Shown here: positions 37,973-42,489 of the stretch, one piece after another
Layout of the letters: each line of letters starts with the position of its first letter
Numbering within the stretch: the stretch's first letter is position 1
From: Actinomycetota bacterium
GTDB taxonomy: Bacteria > Actinomycetota > Actinomycetes > Streptosporangiales > Streptosporangiaceae
DNA length: 64,000 nt
Direction of reading: 5' to 3'
Assembly: GCA_027314595.1 (NCBI GenBank)
Contig: DAHVAN010000318.1
Span: 24,241-88,240 of the forward strand
Position numbers and translations under genes: made by a program
Notes under the pieces: generated by a model
What the model was told of the DNA's origin: nothing
The model's database searches: none
Seen by the model: the letters and a program-made list of their open reading frames with translations, nothing else

Positions 37973-38241
37973 GCCGTGACCTTTGTGCGCAGGGTACCTA
38001 CGACATCAGATTGCCACGTTCCTAAACGCTTCCCTTTCCTTCAGGGTGAGCGGGCAGATCCTGGTGGTCAATCCGCCGGGCGCTGTCCTGTCCTGGCCGC
38101 CGGGCGCCGGCTGGCCGGGCCCGCGGGCCGCGCGAACCCGCGGCGGGCGGCGGCCACGCGAGGTGCCGGGGAACCGGGTTGCTGATGTCGGGTTCGCGTG
38201 CTGCGCCACCCGGGTCAGCGCGCCGCGGCGCGCCCCGCCCG

Positions 38242-38295
38242 TGAGGCGGGTGGCCCCCCGCCCGCAAGATGAGACCCGGGGGGCCACCCGCCTCA
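38242..38295. other. Large hairpin, 18-bp perfect arms, 18-nt loop
   Basis: tgaggcgggtggcccccc ... ggggggccacccgcctca in an intergenic region of about 900 bp. Confidence 0.85.
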
Positions 38296-38707
38296 GGCGG
38301 CGGGCCGTTTGTGGCTGCCGGAGCCTGTTGCGGGAGCCCCGCCCGGGCCGGCGGTGGCCGGCGTGGCGCCAGCGGCGCATGGGGCGAGCGGGACCCGGCC
38401 GGGCGGCCATCAGGGTAAATATTTCCCCGGAAGTGTCGTTATAACAGCACTTAACATGAACATTTCAAAAACTCTCCGGGTTAGGCGGCGGCGACGGCAC
38501 GGGCAGCCGGACGCGGCGGGGAATCACCCGTCCGGGCTAGCGCAAAGCCGTCCTGCAACAGGCCCCAGGGCAGCCTAAACGCCATACGTTCCGGAAAGTC
38601 TTCGTCTTATGCGGCTATCTGGCCTCAGCTGACTCCTGCGTCACGACCGGGCTGCTGGGGACGGGACGCTGGGCGGTGCGGCGAGGCGACTGCACGGCGC
38701 GGCTGCC

Positions 38708-38751
38708 GACGGCCGGCGCCGCTCAGGTGGACGGCCGGCGCCGCTCATGTG
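38708..38751. repeat. 22-bp direct tandem repeat x2
   Basis: gacggccggcgccgctcaggtg / gacggccggcgccgctcatgtg. Confidence 0.85.
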
Positions 38752-38788
38752 GTGAGACAGTTTGCGGGTGCTGGTGGCGATGGGGGGA

Positions 38789-38870
38789 AGGTCTCGTATC
38801 GTAGATAGGAGCCTTCCGCCGGGCGTACCAGCCGGTACGCCCGAACCCCCGTCGGGAGCCCCCCAAGGAG
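38789..38870 (+). promoter_or_regulatory. Structured 5' leader (stem-loops ggaagg..ccttcc and gggcgtacc-agcc-ggtacgccc) ending in AAGGAG
   Basis: Inverted repeats read directly; SD at 38865-38870. Confidence 0.5.
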
Positions 38871-38874
38871 ATGG

Positions 38875-38928
38875 ATGCCCGAGCAGGTACCAGGCCCGTG
38901 CGAGTTCAGCGTCGGGACATGCCAGTGA
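38875..38928 (+). CDS. 17-codon upstream ORF (MPEQVPGPCEFSVGTCQ) overlapping the next start codon
   Basis: AAGGAG-N4-ATG; stop TGA 38926-38928 overlaps the downstream ORF starting ATG 38919. Confidence 0.4.
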   Translation: MPEQVPGPCEFSVGTCQ

Positions 38929-39290
38929 CCGAGCTAGCGAGCACCATGACGCCATGCGAGCTCGCGACTCAGGCGGCCCGCGCGATCCGGGCGCTGAACG
39001 AGCTGACGCATGGCGGGGGCGAGCTCACCAGTCCCGGTGACGTCCGCGACATCGTCGCCAGCCTGGAACTGGTCGGCCGGGACCTGCCGCAGCTGTGCGA
39101 GCAGCTGGCCAGGTTCCTGGTGATCAAGCACGAGGACGGGCAGCTCGCGCACGGCTCGGGCATGGACCCGGACCCCTCGGTGACCGAGGTGATCGAGGCC
39201 CTGGCCGCGGCCGGCCAGGCGGCCGACATGATGGCCGCGGCCCTGAACGAGGCGCTCGGGGCGTCGGTCCCGCTGATTCCGTCCCGCTAG
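38919..39290 (+). CDS. Hypothetical helical protein, 123 aa
   Basis: MPVTELASTMTPCELATQAARAIRALNELTHGGGELTSPGDVRDIVASLELVGRDLPQLCEQLARFLV... Confidence 0.65.
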   Translation: MPVTELASTMTPCELATQAARAIRALNELTHGGGELTSPGDVRDIVASLELVGRDLPQLCEQLARFLVIKHEDGQLAHGSGMDPDPSVTEVIEALAAAGQAADMMAAALNEALGASVPLIPSR

Positions 39291-39342
39291 CCGCGAAACG
39301 CCGCGGTATCTGAGTCAGAGCCGGGAAGCGGGCAGGCTTCGG

Positions 39343-42300
39343 CTAGAAGAGCGTGACCTGGCGGGCCTTGTCGCGACGCGACGCGCGAGCGCCCGTGTCG
39401 GCCGAGCCCTCCGAGGCGCCGGGCTGACCGCCACGGCGGTCGAGCAGGGCCGGGTCGACCGAGGCGAGGAACGGGGACGGCGAGCACCTGGCGGTCGTGC
39501 CGCGGATCGTCCGCTCCGCCGCGGTCAGCAGCACCAGGCGGGTGGTCGCCCTGGTCATGCCGACGAACAGGAGCCTGCGCTCTTCGGCGTAATCGGCGAC
39601 GGCGCCCTGCCAGGGGCGCAGCGGGAGCAGGCCGTCGTCGCAGCCGACGATGAACACGACAGGGAACTCGAGCCCCTTCGAGGCGTGCAGCGTGAGCAGG
39701 CTGATCCGGTCGGCACGCGGGTCCCAGGTGTCGACCTCCGCGCCGACCGCGAGTTCGTCGAGGAACCGGTCCAGGTCGCAGGCGCAGCGGGCGGCGAGCG
39801 GCGCGAGCACGTCGGCGGCCGTCCTGATGGCGGCGCCGGCAGCCGTGGCGGCCGCCGCGGCCAGCCGCCGCGCGACAAGAACCGGGGCCGCGTCGAGCAC
39901 CGGGGCGCTCAGCGCCGCCAGGATCTCCGGGACGCCGGCCATGTCGGCGAGCCGCGCGTGCGAGCGCCGCTGGACCGGGAAGCCGCGCCTGGCCAGTGCC
40001 TCTTCGACCGCCGCCGCCTGCCCCGACGTGCGGTAGAGCACGGCGAAGTCGGCGAAGGACAGCTGGTGTTCGGCGCGGTCCCTGGCGTCTACGGCACGGC
40101 TGTCGAGGGCGTGGAACGAGGCACCGCCGAGCATCTTCTCGATCTCGGCGGCGACGGCCTCCGCCTCTTCCCGTTCGCCGGCGACGGCGCGCACCGTGAC
40201 CGGGCCGTCGGGGATGTCGGTCCGGGCCGGCACGAGCTCCCGTCCGGGGACCAGCGTGCCGGGCCTGATCACCTGCATGGCGGCGCGCACGATCGTCGGC
40301 GCCGACCGGTAGCTGCGCGCGAGCCGCGCCGTCCGCGCCGCCGGGTAGTCCTCGCGGAACCGCAGGAAGTAACCCACGTCGCCGCCACGGAACCCGTAGA
40401 TGGCCTGGTCGGGGTCGCCGATGGCGCACACCCGCGAACCGCCGGCGGTGAGCAGCCGCAGCAGCCGGTACTGCGCCTCGTCCACGTCCTGGTACTCATC
40501 CACGTACACGTCGGTCCACCGGGACTGGTACGAGGCCGCGAGCGCGGGGTCGCCGGCCAGCAGGGCGACCGGGAGCGTGAGCAGGTCGTCCACGTCCACC
40601 AGGCCGCGCTCGCGAAGCGCCGCGTCGTACCGCGCGGCGAGGGCCGCCTGGCCGTCATCCGCCGCCGGGACAGACGGCGAGCCTGCGGCAGTCGCCACGG
40701 CCCGTTTGGCGGAAGAAATACGGGACGCTAGCGCGGCGGGCCGCTCGCCAGCCGACATCTGCCGGAGTACGGCGAGCCGGGCTGGCTCGTCAGCGACCTT
40801 CAGGCCCGCGCCGAGGCCGAGCCGTTCGCGCTGCTCGCGCACGATGAGCAGGCCCAGGCCGTGGAACGTGGCGACCGTGAGCTGGCCGGCGGCGTCCGGG
40901 ATGAGGGCCGCGATTCGTTCCGTGAGCTCGTCGCGTGCCCGCCGGGTGAACGTGACCGCGAGGCAGCGCTCGGGCGGCAGGCCCGCGCCGACGCGGTGCG
41001 CGATGGCGTGGGTGAGCACCCGGGTCTTGCCTGCCCCTGGGCCGGCCACGATGAGCAGGGAGCCCTCGGCCGACACGATCGCCTGCTGCTCGGGGTCAAG
41101 CCCGGCCGGGGCCGGGGCCGGGGCCGGGGCCGGGGCCGGGGACGACAGCAGGGCCGGCGAAAGGGCCGGGGCCGGCGTAACGGCGGCAGCGCCCCGGCGC
41201 GCTCTGCGCGGCGCGGGCAGGTCGAACAGCGTCGCGCCCGCCAGTTCGGCCGCGTCGAACAGCCGGATCGTGCCGTACACGCCGTCGTAGCCGGCCTCCC
41301 GGCGCACCTCGCCGCGGCGCAGGCGGCCGATCGCCTCCGCGACGACCGACGGGGCGCGGGCCGCGAGGTCGTCGAGCGGAACCTCGCCCAGGATGGACAG
41401 TTCCGGCCCGAACCGCTCGACCAGGGCAGCGACCTGGGAGGCAACCGACTTGGACCGCGGGCCGACGCCGGCGATCTCGCCGACTATCTCCGGCAGTTGC
41501 ACGAACGAGCGGTACCCGGCGGCGCCGTCGGGCCGGTAGCCGGCCGGCCGGTCGGCGAGCGCCTCCACCCGGTGCTGCACGCCGATCGTCGGCGCCCTGC
41601 CGCACACCGGGCACTTCCCGCCGGCCGCGCGGGTCTGGTCAGGCGACGTCCGCACCCCGCAGGCGCGGTGCCCGTCGAGGTGGTACTTGCCTTCCTCGGG
41701 GAAGAACTCGACCGTCCCGCCGAACCCGTCGCCGGTCCGCAGCGCACGCTCGATCGCGAAATAGCTCAGGTCGGTGCCGAAGCCGGTGGCCTCGCGGCCC
41801 AGCATCGGCGGCGAGTGCGCGTCGGAGTTGCTGACCAGCCGGTACCCGTCCAGGCTTGCCACCCGCCAGTTCATCTCCGGGTCGCTCGACAGGCCGGTCT
41901 CGATGGCGAACACGTGCCCGGCGAGGTCGGCGTAGCAGTCGCCGACACGGTCGAAGCCGGACTGGGAGCCGAGCACCGCGAACCACGGCGTCCACGCGTG
42001 GGCCGGCACCAGGTAACAGCCGTCGCCACCGGAAAGCGTGACCTCGAGCAGGTCCCTGGAGTCAAGGCCGAGGATCGGCCGGCCGTCGGCGGCGAGGTTT
42101 CCTATCCGGCCCAGCCGTCGGGTGATCTCGTCCGCCGCGTCCAGCGAGGGCGCGTACAGCAGGTGGTGCACCTTCCTGGTCCTGCCGTCACGCTTGTAGA
42201 TCGTCGATATCTCGGACGAGAGCATGAACCGGGCCGGCGTCCGGCACGCGGCGGGCAGCCGGGACAGGACCGCCCGCTCCAGTTCCGGTCGCAGCCGGAA

Positions 42301-42489
42301 CAGGCCGGGCTCGGCGGGGACGAGGCTGGCCCGGAGCTCCTGCGCCCACGCCGGGTGGGTGAAGTCGCCGGTCCCGACCACGGCGATGCCCTTGCGCCCG
42401 GCCCACCAGGCCAGGTGCTCCAGGTCGCAGTCACGGCTGCAGGCGCGCGAGTATTTGGAGTGAATATGCAGGTCCGCGTAAAAACGCAC
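39343..42489 (-). CDS. EndoQ-like PHP endonuclease fused to UvrD/PcrA-type SF1 helicase
   Basis: N-term: DLHIHSKYSRACSRDCDLEHLAWWAGRKGIAVVGTGDFTHP; SSEISTIYKRDGRTRKVHHLLYAPS; LVPAHAWTPWFAVLGSQSGFD; FAIETGLSSDPEMNWR...LVSNSDAHSPPMLGRE; FFPEEGKYHLDGHRACGV...CPVCG. C-term: VAGPGAGKTRVLTHAIAHRV, YVDEYQDVDEAQYRLL, LLTLHASKGLEFPVVFIVG, RRLLFVGMTRA. Confidence 0.92.
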   Translation of the reverse strand: MRFYADLHIHSKYSRACSRDCDLEHLAWWAGRKGIAVVGTGDFTHPAWAQELRASLVPAEPGLFRLRPELERAVLSRLPAACRTPARFMLSSEISTIYKRDGRTRKVHHLLYAPSLDAADEITRRLGRIGNLAADGRPILGLDSRDLLEVTLSGGDGCYLVPAHAWTPWFAVLGSQSGFDRVGDCYADLAGHVFAIETGLSSDPEMNWRVASLDGYRLVSNSDAHSPPMLGREATGFGTDLSYFAIERALRTGDGFGGTVEFFPEEGKYHLDGHRACGVRTSPDQTRAAGGKCPVCGRAPTIGVQHRVEALADRPAGYRPDGAAGYRSFVQLPEIVGEIAGVGPRSKSVASQVAALVERFGPELSILGEVPLDDLAARAPSVVAEAIGRLRRGEVRREAGYDGVYGTIRLFDAAELAGATLFDLPAPRRARRGAAAVTPAPALSPALLSSPAPAPAPAPAPAGLDPEQQAIVSAEGSLLIVAGPGAGKTRVLTHAIAHRVGAGLPPERCLAVTFTRRARDELTERIAALIPDAAGQLTVATFHGLGLLIVREQRERLGLGAGLKVADEPARLAVLRQMSAGERPAALASRISSAKRAVATAAGSPSVPAADDGQAALAARYDAALRERGLVDVDDLLTLPVALLAGDPALAASYQSRWTDVYVDEYQDVDEAQYRLLRLLTAGGSRVCAIGDPDQAIYGFRGGDVGYFLRFREDYPAARTARLARSYRSAPTIVRAAMQVIRPGTLVPGRELVPARTDIPDGPVTVRAVAGEREEAEAVAAEIEKMLGGASFHALDSRAVDARDRAEHQLSFADFAVLYRTSGQAAAVEEALARRGFPVQRRSHARLADMAGVPEILAALSAPVLDAAPVLVARRLAAAAATAAGAAIRTAADVLAPLAARCACDLDRFLDELAVGAEVDTWDPRADRISLLTLHASKGLEFPVVFIVGCDDGLLPLRPWQGAVADYAEERRLLFVGMTRATTRLVLLTAAERTIRGTTARCSPSPFLASVDPALLDRRGGQPGASEGSADTGARASRRDKARQVTLF

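Follow-up and report, generated by a model that had tools for sequence, protein, structure and literature searches.

A small gene in the window (the whole stretch of 64,000 nucleotides analysed here) is preceded by a 17-codon upstream open reading frame (uORF), which has a strong Shine-Dalgarno (SD) sequence and ends on the start codon of the gene. Comparison of related sequences indicates that this uORF, with its SD, is real and is conserved throughout Trebonia, a genus of soil bacteria. We consider it likely that the uORF is a true SD-led upstream cistron, and that the 121-aa gene which it overlaps is translated mainly by termination-reinitiation, from what would be the ancestral initiation site of the gene and under a promoter just upstream. 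This would be a genus-wide case in which a gene is coupled through NTGA to a mini-cistron with a freely drifting peptide. The features discussed are listed in Table 1.

Table 1. Features of the leader and the gene, with coordinates in the window.
Feature	Position	Strand	Conservation or remark
Stem-loop 1, GGAAGG 38786-38791 / CCTTCC 38812-38817, around TATCGT	38786..38817	+	Pairs in the fold of this genome
TATCGT, invariant block, probable -10	38797..38802	+	7/7 genus orthologues, amid diverged sequence
Stem-loop 2, CGGGCGTACC-AGCC-GGTACGCCCG, predicted 5' UTR	38820..38843	+	10-bp stem in this genome
Shine-Dalgarno AAGGAG of the uORF	38865..38870	+	GGAGA-nnn-(A/T)TGCC in 12/12 orthologues
uORF, 17 codons, MPEQVPGPCEFSVGTCQ*, frame -1 relative to the main gene	38875..38928	+	Start, phase and stop conserved in 7/7 Trebonia
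GTGA: main start GTG 38925-38927 and uORF stop TGA 38926-38928	38925..38928	+	7 genus orthologues
Main gene, 121 aa (MTELAST...), small helical protein	38925..39290	+	12 orthologues

The close relatives of the source draft genome include Trebonia kvetii and Trebonia sp. JOPF254 (Streptosporangiaceae). The main protein has orthologues, at 53-84% identity, in 12 of the 343 genomes of the family that were searched. Seven of the 12 belong to the same genus, Trebonia, and make up the set used for comparison within the genus; two of these (G001 and G003) are near-identical. In a midpoint-rooted protein tree the seven Trebonia members form a single clade (support 89/94), with the 'direct' protein G083 as its sister and the extended proteins on the opposite side (support 99/98).

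The gene is flanked on one side by leftward methyltransferase, luciferase-like and NERD-domain genes, and on the other by a gene for a PHP-like/UvrD helicase. The methyltransferase or the PHP-UvrD neighbour is retained at most of the Trebonia loci. The PHP-UvrD reading frame (39343-42489, minus strand) seems itself to be a fusion, joining the N-terminus of a PHP-type phosphoesterase to a UvrD-family helicase (UvrD-helicase E 2.5e-57; PHP_C weak, 0.01), and is also present downstream of the main gene in related genomes. Upstream, the intergenic DNA at 38232-38305 contains a 29-nt inverted repeat, GCCCCGCCCGTGAGGCGGGTGGCCCCCCG / CGGGGGGCCACCCGCCTCAGGCGGCGGGC, which is 86% complementary with a 16-nt loop, and which could be terminator-like or the end of a mobile element.

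The annotation given here differs from that of the preliminary description, which started the gene at ATG 38919 to give a product of 123 aa, and had the stop codon of the uORF overlapping that ATG. The ATG is private to this genome and occurs in no orthologue (the others have GGA, CGG, CGC and similar), while GTG or ATG at 38925 is kept in all seven Trebonia genomes (ATG in T. kvetii). The true start is therefore most likely GTG 38925 and the product 121 aa, and the overlap with the uORF stop is a GTGA at this codon. Conservation at the protein level begins at codon 2, directly after this GTG. This revises the likely start of an unnamed protein family. AlphaFold predicts that the protein consists of three long helices (mean pLDDT 74.7). 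Searches of Pfam, NCBIfam and PADLOC gave no confident match, and the PDB, compared by sequence and by fold, yielded nothing beyond helical proteins of designed or generic type (best E by fold 0.12).

The uORF itself runs from ATG 38875 to the TGA within the overlap, and is found in every one of the seven Trebonia genomes that carry the gene. It has 17 codons in six of them and 13 in the seventh, and is always in the same phase. In 7/7 its first codon lies 4-6 nt downstream of the SD and its stop falls on the main start. The overlap is GTGA in six genomes and ATGA in one (G006), and is thus always a 4-nt NTGA. The predicted duplex with the anti-SD is strong at the uORF in all seven (-8.3 to -9.4 kcal/mol) and weaker at the main start in six (-3.0 to -5.9 kcal/mol). 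The exception is G004, in which a G-rich stretch before the main start gives -9.2 kcal/mol, so that independent initiation is possible in that genome; its uORF begins either with TTG or with an ATG that has zero spacing from the SD. The preliminary description was right to point to a strong AAGGAG and a 17-codon uORF at these positions.

The peptides encoded by the seven uORFs are MPEQVPGPCEFSVGTCQ, MPVPCEFATMADA, LPEQRTSSRTREAGAAR, MPEQATLPWTRDAVDAR, MPEQLALHRAHDVKVTP and MPEQACAAHPRRIEAGQ (the last of these twice). Codons 5-17 are not conserved, and there is no amino-acid conservation beyond MPEQ. Between distinct sequences the interior of the uORF is 31-62% identical at the nucleotide level, with no excess of identity at codon positions 1 and 2, and the peptide is therefore not what is kept. 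An open frame alone is also unremarkable at this composition, the chance of having 74 interior codons without a stop being 0.32.

The distance from the TATCGT block to the SD has varied freely (27, 55, 63, 63, 66, 74 and 74 nt). The uORF, on the other hand, has a length of 51 nt in six genomes and of 39 nt in the other, a difference that is a multiple of three. When the upstream stretch is shuffled, about 1.6% of the shuffles produce a uORF of 5-35 codons that is led by an SD and stops precisely on the start codon. Among 50 NTGA-type starts taken from a mechanical listing of ORFs of at least 250 codons, none has such a uORF, although this control is only rough because the listed starts are uncurated. 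It is on these sequence comparisons (length of leader against length of uORF, the drifting interior, the shuffles and control, and the homologous initiation site described next) that the argument for the uORF rests.

The initiation site GGAGA-nnn-(A/T)TGCC is found in all 12 orthologues. The five outgroups have it in the frame of the main ORF, where it directly starts the main protein; outgroup orthologues carry an in-frame N-terminal extension, MPKRVRPYGSAEDAE... In all seven Trebonia genomes the site lies in the same -1 frame relative to the main ORF, and there it is the uORF that starts from it. The start of the uORF thus looks like the ancestral ribosome entry site of the gene, which makes coupling the natural reading. 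Coupling of the main ORF to the uORF had already been proposed, and gains support from the SD, start, phase and overlap kept in seven genomes together with the homologous site in all 12.

We infer that the direction of change was from in frame to out of frame. It is conceivable, though we hold this only tentatively and think it rather less probable than otherwise, that the uORF was born from the N-terminus of the gene itself. An indel on the Trebonia branch would have put the initiation site out of frame, and reinitiation at the overlapping start would have saved the remainder of the protein, with a minor frameshifted fusion product perhaps still being made. A comparison by eye of the uORF peptides with the outgroup extension gave no convincing homology beyond 'MP'. 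If this origin is true, the locus would be a worked example of the birth of a regulatory uORF. The 12-member comparison suggests a route from N-terminus to uORF.

On the basis of these observations, we propose the following scheme. Ribosomes would load at AAGGAG (38865-38870), translate the 17-codon uORF and terminate at TGA 38926. The same ribosome (or its 30S subunit) would then restart one base back, at GTG 38925. The phase, the end and roughly the length of the uORF would matter, and the peptide past MPEQ would not. In the Trebonia lineage the initiation site and the main ORF are in different frames, and the gene would for this reason now depend on the overlap. The step of reinitiation itself is inferred here, and has a direct precedent in M. 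tuberculosis.

The closest known system is uPPE2-PPE2 of M. tuberculosis. PPE2 has no SD, its start overlaps the stop of an out-of-frame uORF as AUGA, and reporters have demonstrated that its expression depends on translation of the uORF, primarily by termination-reinitiation but with a frameshifted fusion in addition; 4-nt NUGA overlaps between adjacent ORFs number in the hundreds in the genome of M. tuberculosis (PMC11260477). The two systems share a short, SD-led, out-of-frame uORF and a 4-nt stop/start overlap (PMC11260477). They differ in that the M. tuberculosis uORF is under a B12 riboswitch, while no riboswitch was found here and the gene is unrelated; and dependence on the uORF, established there by reporters, is a prediction here. 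Termination-reinitiation (TeRe) coupling at overlapping ATGA/NTGA gene pairs is similar in its 4-nt overlap, its strict phase and the lack of a good SD for the downstream gene, but there the upstream cistron is a gene, and here it is an ORF of 13-17 codons without a conserved product (PMC6728339; PMC11260477). The Corynebacterium ilvBNC uORF is likewise actinobacterial, was first noticed as a conserved upstream motif and is conserved within one genus; it differs in preceding a gene for an enzyme whose pathway is known, while the present uORF has no codon or residue bias toward a signal (PMC10272879). The arrangement described here is thus, to judge from these parallels, a known kind of coupling device, kept across Trebonia.

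The frameshifted fusion seen at uPPE2-PPE2, besides the separate products (PMC11260477), raises the question of whether the overlap is instead a recoding site, at which a -1 slip or readthrough at CAG-TGA would fuse MPEQ... to the 121 aa and so restore an extension like that of the outgroups. The outgroups do make one fused polypeptide from the homologous start, and the -1 relation between the uORF and the main gene never varies. Against this, there is neither a slippery heptamer nor a conserved sequence ahead of the stop, the uORF peptide is unconserved and unlike the outgroup extension, and the overlap itself retains a valid start codon (GTG or ATG). We therefore regard recoding as very unlikely.

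TATCGT is also found upstream of G009, and its simplest reading is that it is probably the -10 element of a promoter. The 5' UTR would then be about 60 nt long and contain one GC-rich stem-loop of no proven role. A scan for E. coli-type promoters found none, and no convincing -35 is evident in this genome; the sequence CTGACC stands exactly 17 nt upstream of TATCGT in G005 and G006 only. The short dyad TATC-GTA-GATA, pointed out in the preliminary description, is conserved only as TATCGT and not as a dyad. TATCGT with its flanks was also considered as a regulon-wide operator: the motif TCTCGTATCGTAGA was searched for in 10 genomes and occurs only at this locus, and so provides no evidence of such an operator. 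Just upstream of the probable promoter (38708-38751) there are two copies of a 22-nt tandem direct repeat, GACGGCCGGCGCCGCTCA(G/T)GTG, with no counterpart evident in the orthologue upstream stretches that were read.

The two stem-loops upstream of the gene, which had led to the proposal of an attenuator or riboswitch, are indeed present where the preliminary description placed them, the core of the second being GGGCGTACC (38821-38829), AGCC and GGTACGCCC (38834-38842). On that proposal the leader would be a structured RNA, in which hairpins within 38786-38843 control access to the uORF or transcription. In this genome the fold is strong: the span 38760-38935 gives -86.7 kcal/mol compared with -72.8 kcal/mol in shuffles (z -3.3), and the leader fold has z -4.55. 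In the orthologues it is mostly not reproduced. For the leader, z is -2.26 in G004, and the other five range from -1.72 to +0.67; when the same span is folded, G002, G006 and G001 do no better than shuffles, and G005 and G003 are weak. Stem 1 has similar flanking arms in G004 and in G001/G003 but not in G002. Moreover, should TATCGT be the -10, transcription would begin downstream of the 5' arm of stem 1, and this arm would then be promoter DNA and not RNA; stem-loop 1 is thus probably not a transcribed RNA stem but a sequence that overlaps the promoter. Stem 2 has counterparts of 7-8 bp, different in sequence but similar in place, in G002, G003 and G006, and weak ones in G005 and G001. In G004 it could not fit, as TATCGT and the SD are separated there by just 27 nt.

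The consensus fold of the seven aligned leaders is weak (-9.2 kcal/mol), and its covariation term is unfavourable. An Rfam scan of the window gave no match, and a scan of 38400-39400 for a terminator hairpin with a U-run found none. Conservation upstream of homologues is thus divided: the uORF is kept in all seven Trebonia genomes, but the hairpins are, as judged from these folds, mostly peculiar to this genome. An RNA leader of the attenuator or riboswitch type is accordingly very unlikely.

A further alternative is that the uORF is an artefact of annotation and that the protein starts at the in-frame ATG 38871, giving an N-terminally extended product of 139 aa. This frame is open in the present genome, and the in-frame extension of the outgroup orthologues offers a precedent. 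However, the ATG abuts the SD (spacing 0), and as an in-frame start it is private to this genome, most relatives having ACG or ACT. In addition, the main frame is closed by a TGA just after the uORF start in G001, G003, G005 and G006, and conservation begins only after GTG 38925, as noted above. We consider a start at ATG 38871 highly unlikely.

Mycobacteria have polycysteine leaders, in which genes are regulated by ribosome stalling at Cys codons. The two Cys codons noted earlier are certainly present in the uORF of this genome, but a Cys-responsive leader peptide, in which stalling at these codons would regulate the gene, is scarcely credible: G002, G001 and G003 have one Cys codon each and three of the seven peptides (G004, G005 and G006) have none, the codons are non-adjacent, there is no terminator, and the gene that follows is not known to be linked with sulphur metabolism.

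It is worth adding that the main protein has distant paralogues, in the same and in other genomes, at 31-37% identity. Those inspected are without the same leader, and have their starts in other contexts. Several of them (L002-L004, L017 and L022, with about 36% identity) start at or near the TGA of an upstream ORF that ends ...ELLA(A/S)LDEE..., which suggests that coupled translation may be common across the wider protein family.
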